A program made the position numbers and the translations under genes. Positions 1,302 to 35,863 of a DNA stretch of 37,536 nt are shown here, piece after piece. Below the pieces are notes generated by a model. It did no database searches and was not told the DNA's origin. It worked only from the letters and a program-made list of their open reading frames with translations. Source of the stretch: a virus; the IMG/VR virus record IMGVR_UViG_3300017991_000226, positions 1-37,536 of that record, one strand, 5' to 3'. Numbering within the stretch: position 1 is the stretch's first letter; each line of letters starts with the position of its first letter.

Positions 1302-1961
1302 TTAAACATATGTGATAAATACAGCCGTTCCAGCAATAATACCAGCCTTGAGAGTATCATCGAATGGGATATCAATATAACCTGAAACACATTCCAGGAT
1401 TATATCCACATTCTGAGAATCCTCCTCCCCGGACTCCTGGCCTGAGTTAAGATTATCCTGCTGAACGTACAAGGCCCTGTCCGTTCCATCAATCTCATTG
1501 TATCCAGAGAGCCAGCATTCCCCATTAGCATCCTGGACGATGGCCAGCACTCCACAGCTTGATGCAGCGGTCAATGAATCCCTCAAGGCACTAAGCTCCG
1601 TGGATGGACGATTAAAGAACATTTCTACCTGGTGCGTGTACGAGATATTATTCCTCGATCCGGCACCCTCCTCCGTGCGTATCACCCCATCGATATTGGC
1701 TTGTACCTGTTGGAAGGTCTGGCCTGATGCCATTGTAATCGCTGATATCTCTCCAGATGTAACCGTTACGCTGGACAAATTCGCTGCCTCAGTCAGGAAT
1801 ACATTCGAGTTACCTGCAACGTTCTTATTGCAGGATCTGGTATAGGTACCGATTGCCATACCAAGGATAACCCCGGTCTCTTGCTCCAGGATCATAGCCA
1901 TACAAATAGCTACAACGATAAACCCGAGCACTCCGATAATTGTTTTAATATGCTTTTTCAT
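1302..1961 (-). CDS. Tail-tube-like structural protein, paralogue B, with N-terminal membrane-type extension
   Basis: From residue 35 (MAIGTYTRSCNKNVAGN) this is a close paralogue of the N-terminal domains encoded at 34820-35863 and, more distantly, 29898-31322. The domain resembles the Bacteroidota phage tail-tube family: a beta-rich start, then a helix after HQVEMFF, then an AIVQDANGECWLSGYNE strand pair. It follows the capsid gene, a usual place for a major tail protein. Two starts compete. The ATG at 1961 has an AGAGGAAG ribosome-binding sequence and adds a 34-residue segment with one predicted membrane helix (about residues 7-27). The ATG at 1857-1859 gives the same N-terminus as the paralogues but lacks a clear ribosome site. 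Function is inferred from resemblance and position. Confidence 0.7.
   Translation of the reverse strand: MKKHIKTIIGVLGFIVVAICMAMILEQETGVILGMAIGTYTRSCNKNVAGNSNVFLTEAANLSSVTVTSGEISAITMASGQTFQQVQANIDGVIRTEEGAGSRNNISYTHQVEMFFNRPSTELSALRDSLTAASSCGVLAIVQDANGECWLSGYNEIDGTDRALYVQQDNLNSGQESGEEDSQNVDIILECVSGYIDIPFDDTLKAGIIAGTAVFITYV
1432..1656. repeat. Dispersed duplication shared with 35436-35660
   Basis: Tracts 1432-1469 and 35436-35473 (38 nt), and 1615-1656 and 35619-35660 (42 nt), are identical, with the same offset of 34004 between copies. They lie in the homologous part of two tail-tube-like genes, so about 560 bp of that domain was duplicated relatively recently. If the genome is circular the copies are only about 3.5 kb apart across the junction. 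The third paralogue (29898-31322) is much more diverged and shows no such tracts. Confidence 0.85.
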
Positions 1962-2012
1962 GATCTTCCTCTTTAAATTGAGATATATGGTTTACAATAA
2001 GATCCTCGCAGC

Positions 2013-3344
2013 CTAATAGGCTACAGAGGAAAGCTCATTGTGTACATACTGAACGCCCATCTCAAACTTTGAACGGAAGCGGTTCTCCTCCTCATCAGGA
2101 TTGTACCACATTCTCGTTTCTGACCAGCTGTTAAGGGAATTCAGACCCAGAACGAGATTATCCTGGTTCGTATAAATTACCCTATGAGGATATGCAGGAT
2201 TCTCTCCTGAGGCATGAGCAAAGTCAGCCTCCAGATCAATCTCCCAGCTCAGAGGTATGATAGGGATGCCCCTGTACTGATGCAGCGACTGGCCATTCTC
2301 CAGCTGGATCTGCGCCCTTTCCGTACCCAGGCTCTCCAGGTAAGAGATATAATTCTCCAGAATGGTATCAGTTACCAGCATGTACTTTTCATTCTTCGGG
2401 GTAGCCTTCAATACCTTGTTAGAGGTTTCATACAGCTCCTTGAAAATATCCTCAGACTCACCGCTGGAAAGATCTGCCGGGGCAGTATTCGCAGTGGTAG
2501 CCACATTACTTCCGGTAAGGTCTCCAGTGATAGCTGCAGAGGGAACGGGGGTGGGTGTTGGCTGCCCGGGAACGGCTGAAGTGAAAATCAGCGTGCTCGT
2601 TCCCGTCAGGGTAATACCTCTCAGGGCCAGGGCTGCAGCATGTAAGGCTACAAAATTGGCAGAAGTTACCGCGATGGAGGTCGCGAATGTTGCAAGGTAA
2701 TTCACACCACCGACAGCTACGTTACACGTACCGCTGGAGCCGGTAAGGGTAACAGTATCTACCTGGGCAACTGCTCCATTGGATATGGCAACCCTCTTGA
2801 TCTGAAGATCTCCAGGGGTGACAGCAGCATTATCAAAAATCAGCTTCCACATCCCATCGAAGGAATTATAATCTACATCAGCCGTGCCCGTGATTACTCC
2901 GCTGCTAACGGTTTCCTTCGTGGTATCATTGTGCCAGTATTGCCGATAAACGTCGCTCTTGACAGCATTCTGATACAGCTCCACGAGAATGGCCTTCAGC
3001 ATTGTCTCATCCAAATTATTCCAGTCATCCGTACGAAGGCCCCTCTCGAATACGGTCTGATAGAAATCCAGGGCATCGTCGGCAGCCTCTGCCTTCATGC
3101 GATGGACCTCCAGCACTCGCTTGGTATACGTCGAGCCGGTAGCAGGATTGAATCCCTTGGCATATGCCTTAAGAAGCTTCTGCACCTTGCTGAAGTAGTT
3201 CATATTCAGTTTACTTCGCACATTGGGAACAACTCGAACTCCTTGAGTTTCGTAAGGCTGCAGTCCAATGAACAGGGGACGAAGGAAATACTCAAGTGTC
3301 TCCTCACCGTTCCACTCAATGTTGGTATTAATAAAAGTTGCCAT
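2013..3344 (-). CDS. Major capsid protein (HK97-like) with inserted beta domain
   Basis: The 443-residue product has the layout of Bacteroidota phage major capsid proteins: an N-terminal arm, a long helical region (residues about 40-140), and a C-terminal region with QYRGIPIIPLSWEID, a YTNQDNLVLGLNSL turn and an acidic-aromatic end. It lies directly downstream of the protease-scaffold gene, the usual partner. Residues about 193-292 form a Thr/Gly/Ala-rich beta segment (DTVTLTGSSGTCNVAVGGVN onward) ending in a PTPTPVP linker. It looks like a domain inserted into the capsid fold, perhaps exposed on the capsid surface. No separate decoration protein is obvious. The start at 3344 follows an AT-rich leader without a strong ribosome site. 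Confidence 0.85.
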   Translation of the reverse strand: MATFINTNIEWNGEETLEYFLRPLFIGLQPYETQGVRVVPNVRSKLNMNYFSKVQKLLKAYAKGFNPATGSTYTKRVLEVHRMKAEAADDALDFYQTVFERGLRTDDWNNLDETMLKAILVELYQNAVKSDVYRQYWHNDTTKETVSSGVITGTADVDYNSFDGMWKLIFDNAAVTPGDLQIKRVAISNGAVAQVDTVTLTGSSGTCNVAVGGVNYLATFATSIAVTSANFVALHAAALALRGITLTGTSTLIFTSAVPGQPTPTPVPSAAITGDLTGSNVATTANTAPADLSSGESEDIFKELYETSNKVLKATPKNEKYMLVTDTILENYISYLESLGTERAQIQLENGQSLHQYRGIPIIPLSWEIDLEADFAHASGENPAYPHRVIYTNQDNLVLGLNSLNSWSETRMWYNPDEEENRFRSKFEMGVQYVHNELSSVAY

Positions 3345-3415
3345 GATATTTTTTTAATTATTGATTTTACTTAATTGTTTCCCGGTATGCCTGACTTTTC
3401 TTATCCCTGTTATGC

Positions 3416-4564
3416 TTAATCTTCGACCCTTGAGAGCTCACCCCTGAGCTTCTTAAGGTCTTCCTTAAGGCTTTTATCCTCCTTCGAAAGGGAGGAGTCT
3501 CCATCATCATCACCCTCTTTACCCTCAGGTCCAATCGTCTTCGTCGATTTAGATACTCCCTTTGAAAGCATCCCCTCCAGTTCTTTGATCCGAGCCTTAA
3601 ACTCCTCATTCTCCTTCTTGAGAGCTTCCTTCTCATCCGCATCCGGATCCTTAAAGGCATCGATCTTCTCCTGCAGGGAGTCGATCTCCTTCTGAGTTTC
3701 CTCAGGGATCTCCGTTACCTCATCACCTTTATCATCCTTCTTTGTGAAAAGCTTCTTTGCGCGAAGTTGGATATCATCCAGAATACTCTGGAGTACTGTT
3801 TTGGTGACTTTCTCATCACCTGATTTCTTGGTTGTCATCGGTTTATGATTTTTGTAAGATTCGTATTTCTGTAAGAATGATTCAATAATATCCGGATGAT
3901 TAACGGCCAATTCATACACCTCAGGATGCTGGTTAAGAAATTGAGTTACCTGGATAGCCATCTCATCTGTAGTGAAATTCTCAAAGAGCCCATCTGTGGC
4001 AGCTGGAGAATCTACAAGATCCGTAGCCAGCAGTGCTGTGATTGATGCATCATCCCTATGCTTCTCATCCCCATCATCATCCTTCCATTTGTTCCTGGTT
4101 ACATCACCCATCTTAAAGACGATAGATGATCCGAACATATCAGGAGATGATTGAGCAAGATTCAGGATGTAGTCATGAGCATTCCCGAGCTTGGGGAGAT
4201 TTTTTGCAGTATCGTCAAGGTGGAGATCGGCAACCGCATGCAACCTGTTACCTGATTTGCGGGGCTTGCCGTATTCTTCGAATTCGTTGTTTGGCTCTCC
4301 GATGGATCTGAAATTTCTATAACGTCCGATAAAGGTCCCGAGTGTGGTATCGCACATGTTGGGATGACCGAACCTTGCTTTGACTCCATTGTTTTGCTCT
4401 TTTCCGAATTTTACAACATTCTTGATGAATTGCTTATTCAGGTAAACTCCATGCCCTTTCGCTTCTCCTTCAGAGCAAACTTTTACGCCCTTGATGATAC
4501 CTTTTTCGGCATCAATAGCCTCGAATTGCTGAATGAAGATAGGGTCTGAAGCGAGGAATTTCAT
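3416..4564 (-). CDS. Prohead protease fused to coiled-coil scaffold
   Basis: The N-terminal half carries a pattern seen in Bacteroidota phage head-maturation proteases: KARFGHPNMCDTTLGTFIG followed by GRYRNFRS, and later LAQSSPDMFGSSIVF. The His of GHPN and a Ser in SSPDMFGSS are the candidate catalytic residues. The C-terminal 150 residues are highly charged and coiled-coil-like (repeated Lys/Glu/Asp heptads), typical of a scaffold that is digested after assembly. The start MKFLASDPIF at 4564 is chosen over an upstream Met at 4630 because homologous proteins begin near this point and the upstream 22 residues are Cys-rich and atypical. The capsid gene follows after a 71-nt AT-rich gap. Confidence 0.8.
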   Translation of the reverse strand: MKFLASDPIFIQQFEAIDAEKGIIKGVKVCSEGEAKGHGVYLNKQFIKNVVKFGKEQNNGVKARFGHPNMCDTTLGTFIGRYRNFRSIGEPNNEFEEYGKPRKSGNRLHAVADLHLDDTAKNLPKLGNAHDYILNLAQSSPDMFGSSIVFKMGDVTRNKWKDDDGDEKHRDDASITALLATDLVDSPAATDGLFENFTTDEMAIQVTQFLNQHPEVYELAVNHPDIIESFLQKYESYKNHKPMTTKKSGDEKVTKTVLQSILDDIQLRAKKLFTKKDDKGDEVTEIPEETQKEIDSLQEKIDAFKDPDADEKEALKKENEEFKARIKELEGMLSKGVSKSTKTIGPEGKEGDDDGDSSLSKEDKSLKEDLKKLRGELSRVED

Positions 4565-4582
4565 TTTAATACATCTTTGTCC

Positions 4583-4600
4583 ATTTGTACAATTACAAAT
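4583..4600. promoter_or_regulatory. 18-bp inverted repeat upstream of the protease gene
   Basis: Forward sequence ATTTGTACAATTACAAAT has 7-bp perfect arms around a 4-nt centre, in the 81-nt gap between the tape-measure-side genes and the protease-scaffold start at 4564. It may be an operator or a short hairpin. No Bacteroidota-type promoter is visible here. Evidence is the symmetry alone. Confidence 0.3.
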
Positions 4601-4645
4601 TTCAAAGATTTTCCCACATGAAATTCTCAAATATTTTGAGACTGC

Positions 4646-4900
4646 TTAATCCTCTTTCCCTATCCGGGTGGTAACCTTCTCCACTGTGGAGTAGCTGACG
4701 CAGTATTTTTCTGCAAGCGTGATCCTTGCATCCGTGATCCTTCTATTAATCGTGATCCTCTGGAAATCTTGCTGGATAAGCTTATCCCTGCATGTCTTCT
4801 CATCCAGTATACCGAAATCGAATAGCGTTTCAGTAAGCTGAGGCTCGATCTTGAAATCTTCTTCCAACATCTTAGCCGTCCTTTTGCGAATATTTATCAT
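4646..4900 (-). CDS. Hypothetical 84-aa protein, helix-turn-helix-like
   Basis: The start ATG overlaps the tape-measure stop by 4 nt (ATGA), indicating translational coupling. The protein is basic and helical. Its C-terminal half (ITDARITLAEKYCVSYSTVE) looks like a helix-turn-helix of the kind in small terminase or sigma-like proteins, but the match is weak. It ends the tail block and precedes the head block. It could be a DNA-binding regulator or an assembly factor; I cannot decide between these. Confidence 0.65.
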   Translation of the reverse strand: MINIRKRTAKMLEEDFKIEPQLTETLFDFGILDEKTCRDKLIQQDFQRITINRRITDARITLAEKYCVSYSTVEKVTTRIGKED

Positions 4901-7900
4901 AAGCCTGAAGTATCATTTATTACAGCAAGATCCTGCACTGCCTGATTAAGCTCATTTACATAAAGTACTACACGCAAATCAGATAGGGAGCTTAATGCTT
5001 TTACCCTTGAATCAATGGCTCCGGTATTTGGTTCAGGTATCGTTCCTCCTGATTGGAATCCGGGTACTCCTGCGCTCCTGAGCGCTGCTGGTCCTCCAAT
5101 AAGAGCTTGCTGATCCTTGTTCAGTACAGCCTCCCCAGGCTGAAGTAGGGCAAGGGTATTATCCCCATTGCGAGAGAATCCAGGGAGCTCTGATCCTGAC
5201 TTCACTTTTCCTCCTTCAGCAAACTTCTGGGATTTGATGGATGCTATCTGTAGGCCAGCTGTGATAGCTGCTCCTGCTGCAGCGATTAATCCAAGGGGAA
5301 TAAATGGCTGCGTTTGCAAAGCATTCAATACAATAAGGCCAGCCTTTATAATGGCTTCAGAGATAGCTATCTTCTGCTCCTGCTTTGCATACTTCTTCCT
5401 GATCTCTTCCTGCTTTTCCTTATTGTCCCCTACAGCCTCCAGCTCAGCATCCATCAGGGCAACGTTCCTATTATACAGGTAATTCAATCCATTATTTATC
5501 ACCTGGTTCGTTGCCCTGGTAATTGACTCCTTCAGCTTCTCCTTATCCCGAAATGCTGCATCCTCCTTCTCCCACAATGCAAGTTGCCAATCAGATACCT
5601 CAGCTTTAATCTCCTTCTTATTATTTGCAAACGTTCTGAAATCATCCAGGATCCCCGCAAGAGTAATTCTGTAATCCTCCTCTATAGATGTAATATCCTC
5701 AGGGGTCAGTATCTCCTGCTCAATTACCTGTGAGATACTTGGTAATCCTGTACCTCCCCCTCCTCCTCCCGCTCCCCCTGGGGTAGCTGGATCAGGTATT
5801 GCTCCTGGGATCTCCTGCAGCTGCTCGAATAATATCCTTTGGGCCTCTGTAAGCTCTGCCAAGGCATCCTTATTCTTGTCAATATAATTCCGGTATGACT
5901 GCTGAGCATTCTGAGCACCGGCTGAAGATGCCTGGAATAGCAAGCGGGTATTCTGCACCCATGATGCAGCTCCGGTATTTACCTCCCTGAGGGAAGAGAT
6001 TACAGTACCCCATATTTCTGACTCCTGCTGAATCCGATCGTCCCGGCTTATATCTGCATCCCGGGTAAGCTTTGCCAGCTGGTCGAAGCCCTCAGATACT
6101 GCATCAGGGATCTCCCCATACCTCTCTACGAGCTGGGAATATCCTTCTGTAAGCTTCGCAACTGCCTGGTTCTCCTCTATCGTTTGCTTTGCCAGGAGCT
6201 GACCCTGCTTTGCCAGGATCTTCTGCTGCTCTTCCTCAAGCCCTGCCTGAGCAATCTTAATAGCTATCTGCCGGTTGTACAGGGCAACATTCTCCGTCAA
6301 TAGCTTTGTATCAATATTCTCCTGATCGATATTCTCCAATAATCCAGGATAGATCTTATTCAGCTCCTCAATTATCTGTTGCTTCCTGGCTTGCTCAATA
6401 TTTTCATTTTGCAGCTCAGCAGTAAGAAGGAATACCTCATCCCTTTGCTGCTCCAGTAAATCAGTAGTCGTTTGCACAGGGTTTACCAGATCAGCAAATC
6501 CCTTGATCAATGGAGCGATTAAGTCCCCTACATTCACAAATACAGCATCAAGGCCAGCCTTAACCCTATTCAATGAGGTCCTCAATGATTCTTGCTGCAG
6601 CTCGAAAGCTTTTGTAAGGGAAGAGGCTTCCCCGAAATCTGTTTTTATTACCTCCAGGATCTCGCTCGTTTCCTCCAGCGTTTCATTTGTCAATGCACCT
6701 GCAGCAACCAGAGCCCTGACATTCGGAATCAGATCAGTAAGCTCAGTATCTCCTTGCTCAACTGCTGTTGCTACTTTCTGAAGTACATTGAGGAATCCCT
6801 CCTGGCTTACATTCGTAGCTCCATAAGCGATCCCCAAGCGATCAAATGTTTCAGCTGCTTCCTTTGATGGCTTGAGCAATGCGGTAAGCGTGGCCCGGAG
6901 AGCGGTCGTGGTAAGATTCGTTTTGATACCCCTTTTTGTGAGCGAGGCATATAATGCAAGGAGATCCTCATACTGAACATTAAGCTGCGTGGCCACAGGA
7001 ATTACCTGGCCAATCTCTTGAGCCAATTCCGAAACTGTTGTCTTACCAAATTTCTGTGCGGTAAAGAATGCGGAGGCAACCTTCTCGGCTTCATCATATT
7101 CCTTACCATAGGCATTGATAACAGTAGTGAGGCCGTCAACGGATGTTGTAAGATCTGTTACCCCTCCGATGGCCAGCTTTGCAGCTGTGGTAAGAAAATC
7201 AATGGATTCCCCTCCAGATACTCCAGCTGAGACAGCATCAAAGGAGGCTTTATTCACATCTTCAATAGCGAGTCCATACTGTTTGATCAGCTGTATCGTA
7301 TCTCCGGAAAGGGATTGATTGAAGTCATCCAGGAGGGACTGCACATTGAGCTGTCCGGTTTCGTAATCAGCAAAGGTCTGGATCGATGTACCAAGGACCC
7401 TATTAAATGTACGGAAGGCAGCTACAGCAGCAAGAATACCTCCAGAGATAGCCGTGAATGCCTGTGTAAATCCTTTGGAGTATTCGCCTACAAGAGTATT
7501 ACTTCCAGATAGATCCCTATCAAAGTCCCGGATCTCCTTTGCATTGGATTGCACCTCTTTCCGGATCTCCTGGTATCTCTGCCTGCCCTCTGCCGTAGTG
7601 CGGTTTAATGTATTCGCTTCCTTCCTTAGCTGAGCGGTCCTGATCCTGAGCTGCTCAATACTCCCAGCGCTGGCCTTAAATTCCTGAGCAGAGAGCCTCT
7701 CCGTTTTATTGAGCTTCTGCTTCTGAACCTGCAAATCCTTTGTCTTGGATGCAATCTCTGAAAGGGTCTTATTCTGCTCCTCCTGCTGCTGCTGGGTCTT
7801 CGCATTGATCTTAAGCGTTTCCTTTCTCTCCTGATTCAGCTTATTCAGCTCCTTATCAATCTCAGCAATCTTCTTCGCCTCGTTAGAAACGCCTTGTACC

Positions 7901-7929
7901 GTTATCCTGAATACTAAATCCTTTGCCAT
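4897..7929 (-). CDS. Tail tape measure protein
   Basis: At 1010 residues this is the longest gene in the window. Residues 1-130 are a charged coiled coil (repeated Gln/Lys/Glu). Residues about 190-430 match the conserved tape-measure core (AAKLAIGGVTDLTTSVDGLT, EIGQVIPVATQLNVQYEDLL, KTNLTTTALRATLTALLKP). A Gly-rich linker (PGGAGGGGGG) is near residue 710, and a hydrophobic Ala-rich segment lies near 860-890. The protein sets tail length; at about 0.15 nm per residue it predicts a tail near 150 nm. It starts 3 nt after the hub gene and overlaps the following gene by 4 nt. Unusually, distal-tail genes precede it rather than follow it. Confidence 0.93.
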   Translation of the reverse strand: MAKDLVFRITVQGVSNEAKKIAEIDKELNKLNQERKETLKINAKTQQQQEEQNKTLSEIASKTKDLQVQKQKLNKTERLSAQEFKASAGSIEQLRIRTAQLRKEANTLNRTTAEGRQRYQEIRKEVQSNAKEIRDFDRDLSGSNTLVGEYSKGFTQAFTAISGGILAAVAAFRTFNRVLGTSIQTFADYETGQLNVQSLLDDFNQSLSGDTIQLIKQYGLAIEDVNKASFDAVSAGVSGGESIDFLTTAAKLAIGGVTDLTTSVDGLTTVINAYGKEYDEAEKVASAFFTAQKFGKTTVSELAQEIGQVIPVATQLNVQYEDLLALYASLTKRGIKTNLTTTALRATLTALLKPSKEAAETFDRLGIAYGATNVSQEGFLNVLQKVATAVEQGDTELTDLIPNVRALVAAGALTNETLEETSEILEVIKTDFGEASSLTKAFELQQESLRTSLNRVKAGLDAVFVNVGDLIAPLIKGFADLVNPVQTTTDLLEQQRDEVFLLTAELQNENIEQARKQQIIEELNKIYPGLLENIDQENIDTKLLTENVALYNRQIAIKIAQAGLEEEQQKILAKQGQLLAKQTIEENQAVAKLTEGYSQLVERYGEIPDAVSEGFDQLAKLTRDADISRDDRIQQESEIWGTVISSLREVNTGAASWVQNTRLLFQASSAGAQNAQQSYRNYIDKNKDALAELTEAQRILFEQLQEIPGAIPDPATPGGAGGGGGGTGLPSISQVIEQEILTPEDITSIEEDYRITLAGILDDFRTFANNKKEIKAEVSDWQLALWEKEDAAFRDKEKLKESITRATNQVINNGLNYLYNRNVALMDAELEAVGDNKEKQEEIRKKYAKQEQKIAISEAIIKAGLIVLNALQTQPFIPLGLIAAAGAAITAGLQIASIKSQKFAEGGKVKSGSELPGFSRNGDNTLALLQPGEAVLNKDQQALIGGPAALRSAGVPGFQSGGTIPEPNTGAIDSRVKALSSLSDLRVVLYVNELNQAVQDLAVINDTSGL

Positions 7930-7931
7930 GA

Positions 7932-10004
7932 TTAGAGTTTTTGGATTAATACAGCTTTTACCCTGTTGCCATCAGTGATAATGCTGCCCACCATGAAGTA
8001 CATTTCTACCCCTTCAATATTCATTTTGTATGTAGCACGAAACCCTTCATTTGCTGCGGTGCCCACAACAGTCATAAACTTCATTATCTCTGCAGGAGTA
8101 AGCACGAGCTCGCAGGTAACAATCTTATTCTTTTCAATCCTATTCCAATCCTTCACCATGAAATCATCAAATACATCATTCATATCTGGAGTCTCCATGG
8201 ATGGGAAGGTCGTGTAATTTGTGCCTGATGTATCCTCAAAATCATCGAAGTAATCAAAATCACCTTTGGTAAGGGCAACCATTCCCTTCCACTCCATTAT
8301 CCTGGGCCCCCATTCCTTTGAGCGAAAGGGAGGGTAATAGTATCCTGACCCAACAAATTCATTACCTCCAAAGATCCGGGGGATCTTGCTTTGACTGAAA
8401 TGGCCTATCTGAGGCATATCTCCTAAGACCGTCGCTGCCAATGCTAAATTTTCATTATCCCTTAACCCTGCCTTAGCATATTCACTCTCCAGGATAAGCT
8501 CCTTTTCAAATGGTACACCACTGGAGGCAACAAAATTATCATATGCCTTATCACCATCTGAAGGTTTCCATCTGAATTTCTGATTGATCTCATATTTGGA
8601 AGCGATTACCTCCAGGCCCGGGAGGCTTGAATAGTCGATCTTATCCGTCCAATCGATGACGGTCGATCCATAGAAATCATCACTCGTTTCACAATAAACC
8701 TTTTTGTTATTCCGATCAACCCAAAAGCGCAGATTAAAAGCTTCCTTCAGCCCCTTGAGTAAATCAATACTATCCATATCCGGAAGGTATTTCGATGGGC
8801 TAATTGTCTGGCCGACGCCAGGCCATAGATTGTGCTCGCTCCATAGCGCAGTGAAGAATGATGATATTGTTCCCTGGATAATAAATATATCAGCGTTCTG
8901 ACCCACCCCACTGATATTCGTTCCCTGGCATACCGCATTGACATAGATATCAATATGATCACCTGCCTCCAGGTAGATATATCCTGTATCCAGCGTGAAG
9001 CTATTCCCTGTATCAAAGAGATTATTTCCGGTATTGGAGTAGGAAAATATTGGAGAGCTGTTGTTTCGAATTGACCAGGTGAGGGAATTAAGCGTAACCG
9101 TGTACACCGTGCCATCCCCATTATTCATATCACTATCAATCTTTATCTGTGCCTGGAAGCGATACGTGCCATCAGCGGGAACGGTGTATCTATCATTTGC
9201 AATGGACCAATCATTTCCCTCATCAGTCGTTTTGGTATTAATATCCAGCACCTTGGTAATGTTTACCCCTCCGCTGGCCCCAATGCCCAGGAATGTTGTA
9301 TCCGAATTATCGGAATTATTCGTTACTGAAACAGCTAATTCCTTACCTGAGATGAAATCATCCAGAGCCGGTTTGGGATCGCTGAACAGGTATAATGATC
9401 TTCCGAATGTAGAAGCAAAAAAGCCAGATGTATCCAGGGTATAGCCAGCATCCAGAAGTATCTTTGTGATAATCGTCTCGATATGCCATCCCATGTAAAA
9501 ATCATACGGGAATAAATCTGATCCTGACAATCCATGATCCCCGCTGATCAGTCCTCCAAAATTTATGAGTGGGTACCGGTAAAAGGCCCCTGCTGCTGCC
9601 GTCCAGCTGGCCAGGATATTTGCACTCGTGAATTCATGCTCATCCCCTCCAGCCCATGACAGATCCTTAATGCTTATTCCAGATATATCGCTTATCCAAT
9701 CATTACCCTCGATGATGATAACGCACTTCTCTGTATTGGCTCTTAGTATCCGCAGCTTACCTCTGATAATCTCCATGCCATTAGCTACGAGCCTGGCCTG
9801 CTCTGTTACCTCCACACGGCTTCGAACATCTTCGATATATCCGAGCTTAGGCTTATTGCCCATGGTAAGGGGAACGTCTATTGTATAGCTCGTGACAGTA
9901 CCTCCCAGAGATAGATCTGTATAATCAGCAACCTGCCTCTTAACGTTTACTTTCCCATTAAAATCAAGTAGATCAGAGCCTATATATAGTTGCATATCAC
10001 TCAT
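7932..10004 (-). CDS. Distal tail / baseplate-hub-like protein with inserted jelly-roll
   Basis: The N-terminal 120 residues (LYIGSDLLDFNGKVNVKRQV, SYTIDVPLTMGNKPKLGYIE) match the start of a tail protein common in Bacteroidota siphophages and prophages, usually next to the tape measure, probably the tail-tip hub. Residues about 260-380 form a C1q/TNF-like beta sandwich (YTVPADGTYRFQAQIKI, then AGDHIDIYV), which often binds ligands or stabilises trimers. The rest (LKEAFNLRFWVDRNNKKVYC) looks like the hub core. The gene overlaps the upstream tail gene by 8 nt. The hub role is inferred from position and family resemblance. Confidence 0.7.
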   Translation of the reverse strand: MSDMQLYIGSDLLDFNGKVNVKRQVADYTDLSLGGTVTSYTIDVPLTMGNKPKLGYIEDVRSRVEVTEQARLVANGMEIIRGKLRILRANTEKCVIIIEGNDWISDISGISIKDLSWAGGDEHEFTSANILASWTAAAGAFYRYPLINFGGLISGDHGLSGSDLFPYDFYMGWHIETIITKILLDAGYTLDTSGFFASTFGRSLYLFSDPKPALDDFISGKELAVSVTNNSDNSDTTFLGIGASGGVNITKVLDINTKTTDEGNDWSIANDRYTVPADGTYRFQAQIKIDSDMNNGDGTVYTVTLNSLTWSIRNNSSPIFSYSNTGNNLFDTGNSFTLDTGYIYLEAGDHIDIYVNAVCQGTNISGVGQNADIFIIQGTISSFFTALWSEHNLWPGVGQTISPSKYLPDMDSIDLLKGLKEAFNLRFWVDRNNKKVYCETSDDFYGSTVIDWTDKIDYSSLPGLEVIASKYEINQKFRWKPSDGDKAYDNFVASSGVPFEKELILESEYAKAGLRDNENLALAATVLGDMPQIGHFSQSKIPRIFGGNEFVGSGYYYPPFRSKEWGPRIMEWKGMVALTKGDFDYFDDFEDTSGTNYTTFPSMETPDMNDVFDDFMVKDWNRIEKNKIVTCELVLTPAEIMKFMTVVGTAANEGFRATYKMNIEGVEMYFMVGSIITDGNRVKAVLIQKL

Positions 10005-11514
10005 AATATTCTACTTCAATATCTGTTTCTAAAAGCGTTCTCTTATCCTCAATGACTACCGAATCCGTCAATACGGTTACCTCTCTGTAATTGTCTTCAA
10101 AATCGCTGTTGAACATCCATACATCTTTCTCAGTATATGTAAGCTGATGAATGAGCCTTCTGATACCTTCCGTCTCATAAAGCGTTCTCAGGATCTCAAC
10201 TTTTTTCTTATAAGCATTCAGCACCTTGCGAATCCTATTCTGATTTTTCCAGTAGGATTTCTCTGCTCCTCCATTTTCCGTGTATAGCCCTCTGAAGATT
10301 ACAGTCTCTTCTCCCAGATCTCCAATAAAGGAAAGAGCTTTTATATCTGCATAGCAGTTCATTTCACAGAGCACGGTAGCAACTGCCCCGGTATAGATGC
10401 TTGACCCTCCATTGATAACAGCATCTATCTGGAAAATTATCGATTGATCATCAGAATCAGGGTTATACGTGAATCCACCCTCGCTATTCATTACCAATAT
10501 TCCCCACCCTAAGTTTGAAATATCTGCTTCAATATTTGTCCCTGCATCAACAGCAACGCGAGCCGTCATGTATGCAGCAACGGATACGTACATAAGCCTT
10601 AATTCCATTCCAATATCATGCTTATACAATGTATCTCCATCCTCTGCCCGGGAAAGGAATTTTTTTCCGGACCCAGTAATCAGGTACTGAGAAAATGTTT
10701 CCCCTGGTCGTACACTGACAGGCATGAATAATAGCGTATCGGCCGACTTGGTACCAGTTACAATAGTTACATCGGAAGCATTCTCATATACTTCGCTGAA
10801 CTTTACCTGAAAATATATCCCTGGGTTATCCTTGAAGTCTGTGATTTTATGGACTGAGAATGTGCCTGAAAAATTGGTATCCGGATCATCATTACCAACC
10901 CACAACGTTGGGGTACTCGTGGCAGCTGTTACCAGGAAAAAATAAATATGATTATTATTCAACTCACCGCTTATCATACCGGCATAGTTTACCCTTGGGA
11001 TTGCGCCAAATCCAGTACTGTCACTGCTAAGAGCAATCTGAGCCTTCTCCGTGCCAGAATCAACAAAATCATTCTCAACAGCTACGATAAACATCTCACC
11101 AAGCGCAGCGGATCCAAGGTCATTGCTTTTTGCATAATCAGGGCCAAAGCCTCCAGAAGAGATGGCCGAATTGATCTTCCTACCGGTTGATGAGAATGTT
11201 GTGAAATCTCCGAGCTGTGCTGTCCATGATGAAAGAAGCTCCGCACTTATACCTGGTTGCACGTGTATATCAGACCCACCAACAGCCTCATTGCATTTCC
11301 CCGTTAAGCTCTTTAGTAATTTGAAGAAATCCCAATCATCCAAACCCTTTGGCTGCTCCAGAACGGCCACGGCCTCATCCACGCCCCCAATGTATACCGT
11401 TGCCCTGATACGTAAATTTTGCTGCGATGCCCCTTCCGTGAGGCTGGTGGTAACCGTGAATTCCGGTGCGTTCGTGATCACCTCCGCAGGATGAGAAGAA
11501 ATAGTTATAGCCAT
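9997..11514 (-). CDS. Distal tail structural protein
   Basis: The 505-residue protein begins with an Ig-like beta domain (AITISSHPAEVITNAPEFTV) and a segment with LRIRATVYIGG. Around residues 90-230 is a jelly-roll-like insert with many Ser/Gly/Asn. The C-terminal part (VTVLTDSVVIEDKRTLLETD) is typical of tail proteins encoded directly upstream of the hub in Bacteroidota phages. It lies between the tail-completion genes and the hub gene, overlapping the latter by 8 nt. Tail location is well supported by context; the exact function (distal tail or minor tail) is not. Confidence 0.65.
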   Translation of the reverse strand: MAITISSHPAEVITNAPEFTVTTSLTEGASQQNLRIRATVYIGGVDEAVAVLEQPKGLDDWDFFKLLKSLTGKCNEAVGGSDIHVQPGISAELLSSWTAQLGDFTTFSSTGRKINSAISSGGFGPDYAKSNDLGSAALGEMFIVAVENDFVDSGTEKAQIALSSDSTGFGAIPRVNYAGMISGELNNNHIYFFLVTAATSTPTLWVGNDDPDTNFSGTFSVHKITDFKDNPGIYFQVKFSEVYENASDVTIVTGTKSADTLLFMPVSVRPGETFSQYLITGSGKKFLSRAEDGDTLYKHDIGMELRLMYVSVAAYMTARVAVDAGTNIEADISNLGWGILVMNSEGGFTYNPDSDDQSIIFQIDAVINGGSSIYTGAVATVLCEMNCYADIKALSFIGDLGEETVIFRGLYTENGGAEKSYWKNQNRIRKVLNAYKKKVEILRTLYETEGIRRLIHQLTYTEKDVWMFNSDFEDNYREVTVLTDSVVIEDKRTLLETDIEVEYYE

Positions 11515-12494: not shown

Positions 12495-12645
12495 TTCTTC
12501 TATCTATTTGTAACCGGTTAATAAATGATCTACCTGTCGGGCTCAGCTCTCTGATGCAAAGGCTCTGCTTTATGTATTCGAGCAGCTGGATCTCACTTTC
12601 TCTTCTTTCTTTTTCTCTGCTGTTGCTTTCGCTTGAGTCGCTCAT
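12463..12645 (-). CDS. Hypothetical 60-aa charged protein
   Basis: I do not recognise it. The ATG at 12645 (MSDSSESNSREKERRESEIQ) is preferred to one at 12690, because the upstream extension lies inside the chaperone's frameshifted tail and looks unlike a protein start. It is hydrophilic and helical. It overlaps the end of the frameshifted chaperone product by 53 nt and the next gene by 32 nt. A small tail-assembly role is possible from position alone. Confidence 0.5.
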   Translation of the reverse strand: MSDSSESNSREKERRESEIQLLEYIKQSLCIRELSPTGRSFINRLQIDRRNEIARLENGT

Positions 12646-26851: not shown

Positions 26852-26882
26852 ATGAACGGATAATTATGAAGAAAAACCAGAT

Positions 26883-28260: not shown

Positions 28261-28354
28261 GGCTGGTCATATTTTGTGAAAATTGGGAGAGAGCTCTTCT
28301 GCCCCCTCCCCTCTCCAGGTCTTAAAGCTCTGAGAGCATGCCTCTGTTTATAAT

Positions 28355-28759: not shown

Positions 28760-28871
28760 AATAATTTGAATTTTGGTGAATATTAAGAGGTTACAATTTA
28801 TGATAATACAATGACTTGGCAAAATTCATGTCTTCAGCTGGTAATTTAAGTCAATAAAATATTAATTGCGT

Positions 28872-29885: not shown

Positions 29886-29897
29886 GATTCTATTTTT

Positions 29898-31322
29898 TTA
29901 AATGTACACCGGGGGATAAGTCGTTAGTATCGCATCATCCGTTCCTGGAATATCTGTAGTATTTCCGAGGCCAACGGCCCCAGCTCCATACTGAGGGTGA
30001 TCAACATCAGGGGCCCACTCCTTTGTCCAAAATAATGCTACCCACTCATCGCGCAGAGCCTCCTGTCCCGCTCCACCTCCGAAGAATATCCCCATCAAAT
30101 ATAAGTCAATCTCAACCTCTTCATATTCCCTGAATTTCATTGTGGCAGAAGAATAAACGCACTCATTTCCAAGGAACATTTCATAGATTCCATCATTATT
30201 CCCATTACCTGGGGAGGATACTGTATTCATTTTTATCCTGATGGTAATCAGATAAGACGCTTGCGAAGGTCCTGACAGATCAAGCAGCTTATTAAAATTC
30301 CAGTGCGATCCGTACGCACTCGGTTGGTCATGGTGGTAGACATAGCCCCCATGTTCACCTGCTATATTATCAAACGCTCCCCGGCTTGTCCACCCCATGT
30401 TTGGATTAATAGGATACTCTGCCCCTCCCACTGGGTATGAAGAACCATTATATGTATACCCATTGGCATTAAATCCCGCCATTCCGAATCCAATCTTTCC
30501 CCCTGCGTTTTTCAGGAACCCAGGCTTGAATGCTTGAATAGATGTCAGCCAGATCTCTTTTTGAGGAGTATAATTCCCAACCAAAGCATTAATGTCATCA
30601 CCAGCGTTATTACCTAAATCAACACTTTGTTCCAATACCGTATAACTACCCAAAGCAACGATTGAACCTGGGCTGGATGCAATTGATGCTCCATAATCTA
30701 CCCCCGTCATGGCATTTGTATAAGGCTCTATAGTTCGATTATTGAAATCCACTTCATTGAAAATAGTATACAAGTCGGATGCAAATGGAAGAGTATCATA
30801 TCCATCGCTTATCCTTCCAAGGACGTAATCATTCTGAGTTTCATCCAGGGGGATATCTTTGCATTCACTGATACTGCCAAGGATAAAATTACCTACATTC
30901 TCAGGGCTGCCTATCTCCACCGATTCCAGAGCGAGGGCACGAACGTACTCCTCGATGTAATTCCATCCTACTAACCATGATTGATTATTTGAATCTACTA
31001 CGATGGCAACGATCCCACAAGGAGATGCAGCCTCCAGTTGATCATGCAGATCATTTATCTCCAGGCGAAGCTTAGAAAGTATAAATTCAACGTTATGCTT
31101 ATATGAGAATGCAGGGGAACCGGTGTTAATCGATTCTGTCCTGATAATTGTATCAAGATCTGCCTCAATTTTCTGGAATGATGTACCTGAATCCAAGTTG
31201 ATATTTGATACTTCCCCGGAGGTGATCGTTACACTTGATATACTGTTGAGCTCTATCAAGAACAAAGCCCTGTTGCTTGGCCGGTTAAGATCGCATGTTT
31301 TATTATAATTTGAAATTCCCAT
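29898..31322 (-). CDS. Tail-tube-like protein fused to a polysaccharide-lyase-like domain (paralogue C)
   Basis: Residues 1-190 are a diverged copy of the tail-tube-like domain (SISSVTITSGEVSNINLDSG, then SPCGIVAIVVDSNNQSWLVG). Residues about 210-474 form a beta jelly-roll with KPGFLKNAGGKIGFGMAGF, GWTSRGAF, GGYVYHHDQPSAYGSHWNFN, and FGGGAGQEALRDEWV. This order (G-G-K-x-G, S-R, Y-V-Y, W-N-F, M-N-T, F-G-G) resembles polysaccharide lyase family 14-type domains. It could cut a capsular or surface glycan. The catalytic Lys and Arg cannot be assigned with certainty. Next to other glycan-active genes it fits a receptor-degrading tail component. Confidence 0.6.
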   Translation of the reverse strand: MGISNYNKTCDLNRPSNRALFLIELNSISSVTITSGEVSNINLDSGTSFQKIEADLDTIIRTESINTGSPAFSYKHNVEFILSKLRLEINDLHDQLEAASPCGIVAIVVDSNNQSWLVGWNYIEEYVRALALESVEIGSPENVGNFILGSISECKDIPLDETQNDYVLGRISDGYDTLPFASDLYTIFNEVDFNNRTIEPYTNAMTGVDYGASIASSPGSIVALGSYTVLEQSVDLGNNAGDDINALVGNYTPQKEIWLTSIQAFKPGFLKNAGGKIGFGMAGFNANGYTYNGSSYPVGGAEYPINPNMGWTSRGAFDNIAGEHGGYVYHHDQPSAYGSHWNFNKLLDLSGPSQASYLITIRIKMNTVSSPGNGNNDGIYEMFLGNECVYSSATMKFREYEEVEIDLYLMGIFFGGGAGQEALRDEWVALFWTKEWAPDVDHPQYGAGAVGLGNTTDIPGTDDAILTTYPPVYI

Positions 31323-31323
31323 T

Positions 31324-31680
31324 CTAATTGAGCTTATGTCCTGGAGGAAGGCTCCTCTTCTTTACCTCATATACATCATTCATCAAACCATCAAGGCGCA
31401 GGGTAAGCTGGCCGATCAGCTCCTTTGCATTTTCGCCCTGCCCCTCCATTTCCTTTCTTAATAATTCATTCGTAACTCTGAGCTCATTTACATATAGCAG
31501 CATAACCTCCCTGGAGACTCTTGTTTGATCCAGCGCCTCGATATGCTTTTCATTACTATTTATTCGCTGATGATTTGTAATAGATACAACGATCCCGGAC
31601 AGGATAAAGGGAGTAAGGACCGAGATAAGAGTAATCTTCAGCTTCCGTATGAATTCAGATTGGTCTTGCGACATAGCCAT
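31324..31680 (-). CDS. Single-pass membrane protein with coiled coil (about 118 aa)
   Basis: Open from 31788, but the ATG at 31680 (MAMSQDQSEFIRKL) starts just after the preceding gene, so I choose it. Residues about 15-38 (ITLISVLTPFILSGIVVSIT) are one membrane helix. The rest is a coiled coil (NSNEKHIEALDQTRVSREVM, later AKELIGQLTLRLDGLMNDVY). Its shape is like small phage membrane proteins near lysis or fibre genes, but I cannot name it. It could anchor a complex to the host membrane. Confidence 0.5.
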   Translation of the reverse strand: MAMSQDQSEFIRKLKITLISVLTPFILSGIVVSITNHQRINSNEKHIEALDQTRVSREVMLLYVNELRVTNELLRKEMEGQGENAKELIGQLTLRLDGLMNDVYEVKKRSLPPGHKLN

Positions 31681-31684
31681 TACA

Positions 31685-32029
31685 TTAATCATTAACACTT
31701 TCCGTGACATCAAAATACCCATACATAATTTGTGAATCATCATCGATGTTCTTAAGTCCATGATGATACCTTTTTTCCTTAAGATCAAAATCCATAGGCA
31801 ATCCCACGATATTATTATTTGCTCCGGTAACCGTAATTGTAGAGGTCAGCTCTGCAACTGATGTACTGGAATTTATTCCTTCCTTCACCTTAAAGATCAA
31901 TGATTTTCCAGATAGATCAACAGGGTTATTATCTTTATCAGTTACCTCGAAATAAAGAGTATAACTGGATCTGGAAATATAACAGATATCCTTTTTCTTC
32001 GCTTCTTTTGCGTTTAAGTCACAGCTCAT
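31685..32029 (-). CDS. Baseplate upper-protein-like (BppU N-terminal type) domain
   Basis: The 114-residue protein has YTLYFEVTDKDNNPVDLSGK, LIFKVKEG, then YFDVTESV, the strand order of the BppU N-terminal Ig-like domain, which attaches receptor-binding proteins to the baseplate in lactococcal phages. Here it is a stand-alone copy directly after the 758-residue esterase fibre, coupled by ATGA. An adaptor for that fibre is the most likely role, but the match is to a variable family. Confidence 0.5.
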   Translation of the reverse strand: MSCDLNAKEAKKKDICYISRSSYTLYFEVTDKDNNPVDLSGKSLIFKVKEGINSSTSVAELTSTITVTGANNNIVGLPMDFDLKEKRYHHGLKNIDDDSQIMYGYFDVTESVND

Positions 32030-34302
32030 AATCGTAATTTTTCAGCTAACAATCTCCCTACAAGATTCTGACCGGATGTATTGTAATGCAAATTATCATC
32101 ATTAAAATATTCCCCAAAAAACTCATCAGTCTCATAAACAACATTCTGAACATTATCATATAGTTCAGCCATTTCTCGGTGTATGTTCCTTACATCATCC
32201 CATGCATCTAATGCATATCCAGAGTTTGAAAGCAGAACCATATACAATGCGGTTCCGGGATAATCAGCCTTAATCCTCTCAATAAAATTAATGTATGCAA
32301 TCCTGATATCTGAGATTGTATAGCTTGAATCTCCATGCCTAACCCCGGCATCCTGCTCACCTTGAATCCAGATAATACCAAAAGGAACATCAGCGTTAAC
32401 ATAAGACAATGCCCCGTCTGTTATCTGCTTAGCATCAGCATATAAATCGCCTGTTTCAGACCAGTTATATGGGTCGGCCGAAGCCTTCGGGGTCATACCT
32501 GTTGAACCCCTTCCCTTTTTTGCTATTAAAACTTTCTTGCCTGTTCTTGAATGAAAGTATTTCCCAAATGGAGGACCTGAGCTTCCAGAGAAATCAGCAT
32601 CCATTAGATGATATAAAAGCCCTCCAGAGTAATAAAATCCATCTCCAATATTTGGCCCCTCCTGGCTGATTGTCCTTGCTTGTCCAAGAGCATTTGATTG
32701 CCCCCAAAGGCCAAATACTACTGTATCATCATCACCAATAAATAAAGAAAGAGTTCCTGAATCATACGTATTCACAACCAAATCAATACCAGATATTATA
32801 TTGTCGACTTCCCTTACAGTCATATTTGATTGATATGCTGCATTCAAATTTGATTCCTCCAATTCTGATACATGCAGCATGTGTGCAAATCTCTGATCAT
32901 TATATGAAGACGATCGAATTAAATCCTGATAATATGGGGTGATCGAAACAGCAGAAACCGTGTCCAAGATTGCTGTTGTGCCTGATGCAAATTTCAATAC
33001 AAGGTCATTTCCGTCTGCTGTAATAATCCTTCTTATTAATCCGTCCGTGGCAATTGATTCCAGATCCCCCGTTTCGGTGGCAATCTTAACAGTCCCATCA
33101 TTTTCAGGTAAGATAAAACGAACAAGATACTTTTGTCCTGAGATAAATACATCAGATTGCGTGATAGATATATCTGCGCCCTGCCCCCCATCTGTTGAAA
33201 CATATCCGTCTGCAATCGTAAGATTCCCGCCTGGATCATTTTCTACCCAATCAGATGAATCAGCAAAGTTTCCATTTGTAATTAAATCGGAACCCTTCAC
33301 ACCGCCATATCTATTGAACAATTCAAGGTCATACTGATCATAATTCAGTTTCCGTGGATTAAAATCAATAAGCGAATCGTACTTATTGTGGAATCCACCC
33401 CCGGCATGGTATGAGATGTAATAATAAGTTGTTCCTAAAATAGACTGAGAAGCACCTATGCTTATATTGTAAACCAATGAGCCATCTGGCTGCACCGGGA
33501 TATAGAAGTCTGTTCCTGATCCATCAGAAGAGGTATTGAATAGCTGAAACGCTCTATCTAAAGCATGATAAGCTGCGCTATTCCAAGAAACTGTACCAGC
33601 GAAAGACTCAGCATTGTTATTGCCCATCAAGTCTAATAGGGTGGATGGATCATAAAAGTAATTTGTCGGGGGTGTTGTAATGGTCCATGTATGATATTTC
33701 AGCAGTTCCGTTTCGCCTATATCTGTATTCCAGAAAGCCAAGTCCCAAAAATAGCCTCTTAATGTGTGAATATTTGGATAGCCATTTGTGAAGTTCTTAA
33801 AATATAACTGGGTGCTGTCTGGCGTGATGTAACCATAAGACACACCATCAATATAAAGATAGATATTTGTACCATCAGAGCGATACATAAAGTTTTGAGA
33901 TACACTCTTTCGTAGGTCATCAAAATCAGCATCAGAGGTATTACCCGATCCGTCCCAATGAAAATATGCTCCACCGCTATCCCTAAATCCCAGTTTTGTA
34001 TTCACGGAAGGGAATTCCAATTGCGCTCCAAATCCTCCCCCAATCACAGAGTCTCTGCCACCCGTTCTAAATTCAATAGCCTTAAATGCAACAGCCCATT
34101 CAGTTAGATTATTTGAAAGCGGAGTGTCCCATTCGACCCCTCCTTCTTCACCATTGAAAAATGGACACCGGCACGAGATAACGGCTTCACTTAAAGTATT
34201 TCCTTCGAGTAAATTATTAGCCCTCGAAGACAATGTTTTATTGTAATCTACCTCGGATATGTTGTATTTCCGCTGCTGTACCTGTGTGATTTGAAAGGTC
34301 AT
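32026..34302 (-). CDS. Receptor-binding fibre with LamG-like domain and SASA acetylesterase
   Basis: Residues about 30-210 form a LamG/concanavalin-like sandwich (EWAVAFKAIEFRTGGRDSVI, LYIDGVSYGY, GYFWDLAFWNTDIGE). Residues about 340-455 form a carbohydrate-binding-like domain (DLITNGNFADSSDWVEN). The C-terminal 240 residues are a SASA-type esterase: nucleophile Ser536 in WGQSNALGQ, WIQGEQDAG, and DDNLHYNTSGQ near the end (Asp735/736 and His739). The enzyme class removes acetyl groups from sugars such as sialic acids or xylans, so it may strip O-acetyl groups from host surface glycans. It is coupled to the carbohydrate-binding-like gene by ATGA. Confidence 0.78.
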   Translation of the reverse strand: MTFQITQVQQRKYNISEVDYNKTLSSRANNLLEGNTLSEAVISCRCPFFNGEEGGVEWDTPLSNNLTEWAVAFKAIEFRTGGRDSVIGGGFGAQLEFPSVNTKLGFRDSGGAYFHWDGSGNTSDADFDDLRKSVSQNFMYRSDGTNIYLYIDGVSYGYITPDSTQLYFKNFTNGYPNIHTLRGYFWDLAFWNTDIGETELLKYHTWTITTPPTNYFYDPSTLLDLMGNNNAESFAGTVSWNSAAYHALDRAFQLFNTSSDGSGTDFYIPVQPDGSLVYNISIGASQSILGTTYYYISYHAGGGFHNKYDSLIDFNPRKLNYDQYDLELFNRYGGVKGSDLITNGNFADSSDWVENDPGGNLTIADGYVSTDGGQGADISITQSDVFISGQKYLVRFILPENDGTVKIATETGDLESIATDGLIRRIITADGNDLVLKFASGTTAILDTVSAVSITPYYQDLIRSSSYNDQRFAHMLHVSELEESNLNAAYQSNMTVREVDNIISGIDLVVNTYDSGTLSLFIGDDDTVVFGLWGQSNALGQARTISQEGPNIGDGFYYSGGLLYHLMDADFSGSSGPPFGKYFHSRTGKKVLIAKKGRGSTGMTPKASADPYNWSETGDLYADAKQITDGALSYVNADVPFGIIWIQGEQDAGVRHGDSSYTISDIRIAYINFIERIKADYPGTALYMVLLSNSGYALDAWDDVRNIHREMAELYDNVQNVVYETDEFFGEYFNDDNLHYNTSGQNLVGRLLAEKLRL

Positions 34303-34820
34303 AATTTCTTCTTGATCGATAAATTATCAAGGTAAATGGCACCATCATTTGATCCGCTTGCCTCTCTTATTTGTACATTCAATGTTACACCTATTGCTGT
34401 AACTTCAAGATCCAAATCACGCCATTCCGTTTCTGTGTTTGCAATATAATAAGCCTGATTCGCTCCGTTGATATAAACCCCCCAGCTTCCTCCTACACCC
34501 TTATGCTTCCATCGTCCAGTGATTTGATATACCTCTCCACCTGTTACTCCAGAAATACTGTATTGAGCCCTCGCATTTACTGTTGGGGTATCATTGCAAT
34601 CAAGTTCAAAAGCATAACCTCCAACCTCCTTTTCTACTGATTGGCTTCTGGATATATTCGCCCCCGTTCCAGCAAGTCCGGTAAAATCCCACCCTGTTGT
34701 GGCATCCGCTTCGTTTCCATTGGGATCTGAAACAGCGTTTGCATCAACATGGAGTTCCGGCCCATAAGATTCCCCGGCTCTACTTTTCAGCAATCCTATT
34801 CCTATTCCGATTCCTGGCAT
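34299..34820 (-). CDS. Stand-alone carbohydrate-binding-like protein
   Basis: The 173 residues match almost end to end the C-terminal domain of paralogue A. They start after a Gly/Ile leader (MPGIGIGIGLLKSRAG), then YGPELHVDANAVSDPNGNEA, then GRWKHKG and DGAIYLDNLSIKKK. The fold suggested is a CBM4/9-like jelly roll (G-x-x-D-x-W-x-H-K-G and D-N-x-S-I/V-K-x-K end). The gene is separated from its parent copy by a TAATG overlap. It could be a freely acting glycan-binding or decoration module. Confidence 0.65.
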   Translation of the reverse strand: MPGIGIGIGLLKSRAGESYGPELHVDANAVSDPNGNEADATTGWDFTGLAGTGANISRSQSVEKEVGGYAFELDCNDTPTVNARAQYSISGVTGGEVYQITGRWKHKGVGGSWGVYINGANQAYYIANTETEWRDLDLEVTAIGVTLNVQIREASGSNDGAIYLDNLSIKKKL

Positions 34821-35248
34821 TACAATTTTTCTTTTACTGATACATTATCAATGAAGACTCCCCCATCATTACCAACATTGTTTTCTCTTATCTGAATATT
34901 TAAGGTAGTTGATGGAGATGCAATTTCATATACAACAGAATTAAATGATGTTTCTGTATTAGTGATTGTTACGGGCTGCGCAGCTCCATTAATGTATAAT
35001 GCCCAATCTCCCCCAGATCCTTTATGCCTCCAATCAAATGTAATACGGTATGTGTAACCAGTAGTTACCCCCGCAATAGCAAGAACGCCCATAGCCCCGG
35101 AGGTTGGAGTATCATCAGCATCCAGTTGAAGAGCGTAGCTACCTACATTTTTCACAGCTGATTGGCTCTGAAAAATATTCGCCCCCGTTCCAGCAAGTCC
35201 GGTAGATGTCCAACCGGTAGTTGCATCCGCTTCGTTTCCATTGGGATC
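34654..35248. repeat. Tandem duplication of a carbohydrate-binding-like domain, period 521 bp
   Basis: Tracts 34654-34683 and 35175-35204 (30 nt), and 34702-34727 and 35223-35248 (26 nt), are identical with a constant offset of 521. The duplicated unit extends through 34820-35270 and its copy at 34299-34750. The two copies encode the C-terminal domain of the 347-aa protein and the whole 173-aa protein. Confidence 0.85.
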
Positions 35249-35863
35249 GCTTGCTGCATTCGCTGAGGTATGCAGTTCTGGACCATACGTTGCAGAGCTC
35301 CATTCAATTGGAGATCCTCCTCCTGCTGCCAGGGCATCCGATATTGATGTATTTAATGCATCATCGAACGGGAGATCCTGATATCCTGAATCTGACTCAA
35401 GGATTATATCCACTTCCTGAACATCTTCTTCATTTGACTCCTGGCCTGAGTTAAGATTATCCTGCTGAACGTAAAGGGCCTTATCCGTTCCATCTGTCTC
35501 ATTGTAGCCAGAGAGCCACGTCTTACCATTACCATCAACGACCAGGGCAACAATACCGCAGCTTGATGCAGCGGTAAGGGAATCACGCAGAGCATTCAAT
35601 TCTGCTGATGGATGGGAGAAGAACATTTCTACCTGGTGCGTGTACGAGATATTATTCCTCAAGCCAGCACCCTCCTCCGTGCGTATCACCCCATCAATAT
35701 TAGCCTGGACCTGTTTAAAGGTTGCAGATCCAACCATACTAATGGCAGTAACTTCCCCTCCGGATACAGTAACAGAATCAATATTCGCAGCCTCAGTAAG
35801 AAGAACAGCCAAATTTCCGGCAACGTTCTTATTGCATGATCTTGTAAAGGTTCCTATTGACAT
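34820..35863 (-). CDS. Tail-tube-like protein fused to carbohydrate-binding-like domain (paralogue A)
   Basis: Residues 1-190 begin MSIGTFTRSCNKNVAGN and are close to paralogue B at 1302-1961; the DNA includes tracts of identity. Residues about 195-347 form a jelly-roll-like domain (YGPELHTSANAASDPNGNEA, FDWRHKGSGGDWALYING, DNVSVKEKL). The fusion could display the binding domain on the tail tube, as some siphophages do with Ig-like domains on their tail-tube protein. The 36178 and connector genes lie upstream. It is followed immediately by a free copy of its binding domain. Confidence 0.7.
   Translation of the reverse strand: MSIGTFTRSCNKNVAGNLAVLLTEAANIDSVTVSGGEVTAISMVGSATFKQVQANIDGVIRTEEGAGLRNNISYTHQVEMFFSHPSAELNALRDSLTAASSCGIVALVVDGNGKTWLSGYNETDGTDKALYVQQDNLNSGQESNEEDVQEVDIILESDSGYQDLPFDDALNTSISDALAAGGGSPIEWSSATYGPELHTSANAASDPNGNEADATTGWTSTGLAGTGANIFQSQSAVKNVGSYALQLDADDTPTSGAMGVLAIAGVTTGYTYRITFDWRHKGSGGDWALYINGAAQPVTITNTETSFNSVVYEIASPSTTLNIQIRENNVGNDGGVFIDNVSVKEKL

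Follow-up and report, generated by a model that had tools for sequence, protein, structure and literature searches.

The IMG/VR virus record IMGVR_UViG_3300017991_000226 (37,536 bases, analysed over its full length and hereafter called the window) carries its main genes on the minus strand, three of which encode proteins sharing a domain of ~180 amino acids (aa). Protein A (1302-1859) has 185 aa, starts with MAIGTY and is encoded between the genes for the major capsid protein (MCP) and the portal. Protein B (34820-35863) joins the shared domain (residues 1-~188) to a C-terminal carbohydrate-binding jelly roll (190-347), and protein C (29898-31322) joins it (residues 1-~170) to a C-terminal domain of ~290 aa. 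An initial annotation of the window had already placed these three open reading frames (ORFs), giving 1857 as the end of A, which reaches 1859 with its stop codon, and had noted the domain common to them. This domain is real, since the similarities exclude chance: A and B are 75.9% identical over 174 aa (blastp, E = 4e-97), A and C are 39.1% identical over 169 aa (E = 1e-36), and B and C are also similar (E = 5e-31). B and C each have an ORF and a start of their own and are not frameshift products of the main tube gene, as the extensions of the SPP1 gp17.1*/TpeX type are. The ORF following A (1107-1301) encodes 64 aa without a glycan domain and resembles a small gene at the same place in two of the other phage loci compared here (referred to by L numbers), L062 and L063. 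We consider it highly probable that A, B and C are tail-tube paralogues.

Tail-tube fold of the shared domain

Direct searches of Pfam, PHROG, PDB sequences and INPHARED with A, B and C returned no significant tube match, and there was no match in a tube search across 84,980 genomes or in a terminase scan of IMG/VR. Since no family or sequence match to the three proteins was significant, we relied on fold search and gene neighbours. An AlphaFold2 model of A built from a four-sequence alignment is modest (pLDDT 66.5, pTM 0.70), and shows the strands and helix (residues 87-97) of a tail-tube beta-sandwich with a flanking helix. Foldseek comparison with the PDB retrieved almost solely tail tubes and tube-fold baseplate or neck proteins (best E = 0.006), and the VIA comparison gave Z scores of up to 8.3 with ~120-129 residues aligned to the tubes of Pa193, 80alpha, YDC107, SPP1, monocin and lambda (gpV), so that the PDB fold matches of A are nearly all tubes or Hcp. 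A further 29 matches with E <0.001 came from BFVD, some of them annotated as major tail or tail tube protein; the two top-ranking matches are proteins of 185 aa (33% identity, E = 3e-14) and 485 aa (27%), both labelled 'uncultured marine virus'. The gene order MCP-tube-portal is common to L005, L062, L063, L066, L068 and L069, a conserved position within the structural module of long-tailed phages. Based on predicted fold and gene order, A is the main tail-tube protein, and the N-terminal domain of all three proteins is related to tail-tube folds, as had been supposed.

Glycan-related domains of B, C and a fourth gene

The full-length model of B (17-sequence alignment) has a pLDDT of 71.6 overall and of about 78-94 over residues 211-347. 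Residues 193-347 superimpose on the porphyran-binding carbohydrate-binding module (CBM) 8xmz with Z = 15.3 and 2.1 A over 130 residues, the jelly-roll fold of CBMs, with further matches to CBM22, CBM16, CBM61 and CBM4 (Z 11.6-13.8) and to the phage tailspikes CBA120 TSP4 and K2-2. Matches of B to insecticidal-protein structures are due to the shared jelly-roll domain and were given no weight. By sequence, Pfam CBM_4_9 was matched by 3 of 15 module members, with a best E of 0.0089, below the cut-off among the matches listed, which does not place the module in this curated family, and a PDB profile search with the module was weak (best E = 0.0056, a CBM4-2 xylanase module). As first annotated, then, the C-terminal half of B very likely adopts a CBM fold, judging from the structural models.

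Absent from the initial annotation was a fourth part, D (34299-34820, minus strand), a free-standing copy of the module of B. It has 173 aa, starts with MPGIGIGIG and is 58% identical to B residues 192-347. In L007 (10462) and L063 (13436), a counterpart of D immediately follows the second tube gene. A CBM search of the 84,980 genomes showed that the module family includes Flavobacteriia proteins of Flagellimonas, Allomuricauda, Eudoraea, Leptobacterium and Galbibacter. These proteins of marine Flavobacteriia have a signal-peptide-like start (judged by eye), mostly followed by FN3-like repeats, an arrangement consistent with a surface glycan role. We infer from the modelled fold that the CBM module binds glycan.

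The C-terminal domain of C had been described as polysaccharide-lyase-like, a description of which only a weak likeness to polysaccharide lyase 14 survives. The end of C matches PF21294 with 21.8 bits (cut-off 27) over profile positions 142-199 of 215 (58 positions), below the Pfam cut-off and short of most of the domain. This single sub-threshold match was accompanied by no relative of the domain in PDB sequences or IMG/VR scans, and the domain is at most a putative polysaccharide lyase.

Recurrence of the tube-CBM architecture

Scanning IMG/VR with the CBM module yielded 18 loci, three of which (L005, L007 and L018) repeat the architecture of a copy of the phage's own tube joined to the CBM. 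L005 is a close relative of the window (MCP 65%, portal 60%) with a main tube at 3869-4426 and a tube-CBM fusion at 9425-10459, its own tubes being 39% identical. L007 is a different phage, whose main tube (4430-4981) and tube-CBM fusion (9440-10459) are 64% identical and are followed by the D-like gene. L018 has a TP901-1-type tube at 4515-4916 and a copy at 9593, 56% identical, that runs into the CBM; PF06199 scores 22.5 bits in the fused copy (cut-off 23.8) and phrog_1407 matches the plain copy with E = 5e-13.

The tubes of the window, of L007 and Bacteroides phages and of P12024S are remote homologues (hhalign E from 1.6e-5 to 1.7e-11; unrelated controls at least 0.03), and hhalign profile comparison detected no relation between the L018 tube and A. 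We therefore rejected a view of the window, L007 and L018 tubes as three unrelated families, as the first two types are remotely homologous and L018 alone stands apart. Since the same CBM occurs with an own-tube anchor in phages with different tubes, the two appear from their sequences to have been joined several times. Unusual here is that a glycan module is carried by a paralogue of the tube from the same phage.

Extra tube genes in Bacteroidota siphophages

The initial annotation assumed that a single-copy tail tube is normal. This fails for Bacteroidota siphophages, which often have two or three tube paralogues, and within-contig comparison and tblastn located extra tube genes at 364 places in 140 INPHARED records. 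Cellulophaga phage phi46:1 has two tubes, gp04 and gp05, that are 77% identical, Nonlabens phage P12024S has two, gp03 and gp09, that are 32% identical, and several Bacteroides and Phocaeicola phages have three tandem unfused tube-like genes between the MCP and portal genes; tube identity in all of these is based on homology and MCP-portal position. Unannotated tandem triplets between MCP and portal lie at L056 8460-10051, L057 8444-10078, L059 4959-6585, L060 8468-10131 and L055 15220-16828. The PHROG match of one tandem tube-like gene, phrog_21217, is listed as of unknown function.

History of the tube copies

A tree of 12 tube domains placed A with B (support 93/99) and C, the older paralogue, with the fused tube of L005 and the second tube of L063 (93/96). 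Forcing B together with the second copies of L005 and L063 was rejected (p-AU 0.016); forcing all four extra copies together was not (p = 0.165). The CBM of B is 58% identical to that of L005, while the tube domain of B resembles the main tube A of the same genome more than it does the fused protein of L005, and B sits where L005 and L063 have their second tubes, right after a gene for ~101 aa. In L063 the unfused state is seen, with the second tube and the CBM encoded by adjacent, overlapping genes. On the simplest reading of these sequences, the anchor of B derives anew from the main tube of the same phage or was converted by it, an outcome that co-assembly would favour. An old second-tube lineage would then have carried changing ends (none, CBM or polysaccharide-lyase-like), with the window holding a fresh main-tube copy or conversion in its place.

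The variation of copy number and C-terminal modules among close relatives could also indicate that the extra copies are passengers, produced by recent duplication and module shuffling without a selected function, and L067 and L068 indeed seem to have no second copy. Yet the ratio of nonsynonymous to synonymous substitutions (dN/dS) between A and B is 0.18 at dS 1.08 (Nei-Gojobori), which implies purifying selection on both copies. With values of 0.07-0.32 for the tube pairs where dS was estimable, intact frames and the same architecture assembled repeatedly with different tubes, we regard passengers as the least credible explanation.

Genome map and neighbouring genes

The portal gene is divided over the record ends (3-1037 and 37316-37534), the two pieces aligning to the single intact L005 portal and leaving ~2 residues between them, and the record is therefore very probably one whole genome opened within this gene. 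At the end-to-start junction the portal gene is off frame, presumably with one base missing or gained at the join. With the portal split across the ends, B begins only ~3 kb downstream of A on the closed genome, and the apparent 33 kb between the two genes results from where the contig was cut. The closed map reads tape measure, protease/scaffold region, MCP, tube A, 64-aa gene, portal and DUF6712 connector, followed by a sialyltransferase-like gene, a 101-aa protein, B, D, a SASA fibre, small genes, C and probable lysis genes. The tape measure gene (4897-7929, minus strand; phrog_991, E = 7.7e-56) identifies a long-tailed phage, probably one of Bacteroidota.

Directly upstream of A lies the probable MCP (2013-3344), named by position, which is 65-70% identical to its counterparts in L005, L063, L066 and L068 and matches phrog_38780, of unknown function (E = 2e-9). 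The gene adjoining B and D encodes a tail-fibre-like protein (32026-34302) with a SASA esterase domain at residues 613-756 (Pfam SASA, 31.6 bits; cut-off 24.8). Directly upstream of B is the gene for the 101-aa protein (35873-36178), whose position is kept in L005, L062 and L063 (45%, 44% and 38% identity); these three genes are likewise on the minus strand. The sialyltransferase-like protein (36181-36804; phrog_4603, E = 1.4e-16) is encoded directly after the connector, and its gene is kept within the structural cassette of L005, L062, L066 and L068. A 114-aa protein of the adhesion cluster (31685-32029; phrog_1084, E = 1.2e-6) has an L007 counterpart at 12632 and resembles small fibre-adaptor genes.

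On the closed map B follows the portal, the connector and the ~101-aa protein, and some Bacteroides relatives are annotated 'Head-tail adaptor', which would suit B and C decorating the head or neck with a reused tube fold, comparable to head-tail adaptor and tail terminator folds. However, by far the most similar gene to B is the main tube A, and the fold matches are dominated by tubes. A head or neck location is accordingly very improbable, and we favour placing B and C in the tail.

Translation signals and hydrophobic leader

Bacteroidota rarely use Shine-Dalgarno (SD) sequences. The main tube genes of L005, L062, L063, L066 and L068 have an SD match of 5-8 nt, compared with 4 of the 49 other genes listed there, these being related phages and not independent; in these phages strong SDs mark the main tube genes and are absent from nearly all others. 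An SD match is missing before B, the fused tubes of L005, L007 and L018 and the second tube of L063, which suggests that the fused copies may be made in smaller amounts than the main tube.

Upstream of A and in frame with it is a hydrophobic leader of 34 aa (1860-1961, minus strand), which lengthens the ORF to 219 aa (1302-1961); its ATG is preceded by a weak SD (GAGG). Similar leaders of 32-35 aa occur on the main tubes of L063 (9905), L066 (9902) and L067/L068 (9896), and a hydrophobic leader is also found on the MCPs of some relatives (L063 8428, L068 8450, L066 8430); taken together, the tube and MCP leaders span 32-38 aa and have similar ends (..AGVIGA / ..PGIIFG). Second and fused tubes have none. 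The tubes of L066 and L067 have no Met at their start, and their leader must therefore be translated.

Proposed role in the tail

We propose, with somewhat more confidence than doubt, that B and C are minor subunits which co-assemble into the tail and display glycan-binding domains. Both would keep the tube domain as an anchor with a glycan-related domain at the C-terminus, and B, perhaps also C, would be expressed at a lower level than A from a separate gene within the adhesion cluster. B (and perhaps C) would join the tube rings beside A subunits or replace some of them, and would thus be incorporated into virions. By analogy with the tubes of lambda, SPP1 and T5, the C-terminal domains would be exposed outward on the tail exterior, where the CBM could bind surface polysaccharide weakly but many times over and keep the phage near its host. 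The initial annotation went further in suggesting that the domains could help the phage penetrate a capsule along its whole tail; lysis or penetration of this kind is unsupported and is speculation. More tentatively, and with rather less confidence than for B and C themselves, Bacteroidota siphophages may build mixed tails from families of tube paralogues, one of which serves as an exchangeable holder of glycan domains, its module being kept while the anchor is replaced by, or matched to, the main tube.

Several observations weigh against co-assembly or the tube assignment behind it. The pLDDT of A is 66.5 and a Z score of ~8 is at the level where the tool cautions, so that the tube case leans on the near-uniform tube matches and on gene position. 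The SD of A is only weak, and the main tube of L018 has none. The CBM of L018 ends after 26 residues at the contig end, L067 and L068 are without a second tube copy within the flanks compared, and in the phi46:1 record gp04 and gp05 carry no MS/MS note, which other structural genes do have. The C, L005 fused and L063 second copies, at ~35-39% identity to main tubes, may not share their rings.

The location of B and C among adhesion genes fits a component of the tail tip equally well, and the main rival is that B and C, instead of being spread along the tube, form one or two dedicated distal rings that serve adhesion like an evolved Dit, carry glycan domains and dock the fibre. A tube fold is compatible with tube and tip ring alike. 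In the window, L005, L063, phi46:1 (gp05 before the fibre gp06) and P12024S (gp09 before gp10), a fibre or adhesion gene comes immediately downstream of the second tube, the fused copy of L018 lies after the distal-tail region and follows the gene for a large protein (7406-9577) downstream of the tape measure gene, and the divergence of the old second-tube lineage is as expected of a separate ring with its own contacts. However, a specialised ring would not need an anchor re-derived from A and 76% identical to it over the entire tube domain, nor does it sit easily with the Bacteroides phages that have up to three unfused tandem tubes between MCP and portal. We therefore consider dedicated tip rings rather unlikely and retain co-assembly of B and C as minor tube subunits.

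Comparison with known decorated tails

Tail decoration has so far been described mainly as frameshift products or built-in immunoglobulin (Ig)-like domains of a single tube gene, and our search of open-access papers turned up no account of several tube paralogues in Bacteroidota phages or of a duplicated tube with a glycan module. By gaining an altered extra tube gene, some phages may cover their tails with parts that bind sugars, and decoration on a separate, duplicated gene would allow dosage and module to change with the main tube untouched. If true, this would help to explain why many Bacteroidota phages have several unannotated tube-like genes and could serve to identify decorated tails in metagenomes; heteromeric tails formed by paralogy would become testable.

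In lactococcal 936-group phages, a programmed frameshift from the single major tail protein gene produces the TpeX extension, which bears a BppA-type CBM and decorates the tail, and a GFP-TpeX fusion bound host cells specifically (PMC6669499). B is similarly a tail-tube protein with a C-terminal CBM; unlike TpeX, it is encoded by a separate gene in the adhesion cluster and its CBM is a CBM4/16/22-like jelly roll. In SPP1, plain gp17.1 and C-terminally extended gp17.1* occur in one tail at 3:1, the extension arising by frameshift and being dispensable, and its FN3 domain has been proposed to touch cell-wall carbohydrates (PMC8718954). SPP1 has no separate gene for the extended form, whereas the window relies on gene duplication. 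The Ig-like C-terminal domains of lambda gpV, T5 pb6 and YSD1 likewise come after the tube domain and lie outside the tube (PMC8718954), although these are present on every subunit and encoded by a single gene. Phages phi46:1 (gp04/gp05), P12024S (gp03/gp09) and the Bacteroides phages (ARB14_13-15) have two or three tube paralogues per genome that are remote homologues of A, but these lack a glycan module, and the Bacteroides copies are in tandem between MCP and portal. A precedent for hetero-assembly comes from a secretion system, the Bacteroides fragilis type VI Hcp2-Hcp3 heterohexamer, in which, going by the title of PDB entry 9vne, tube-fold paralogues form mixed hexameric rings.

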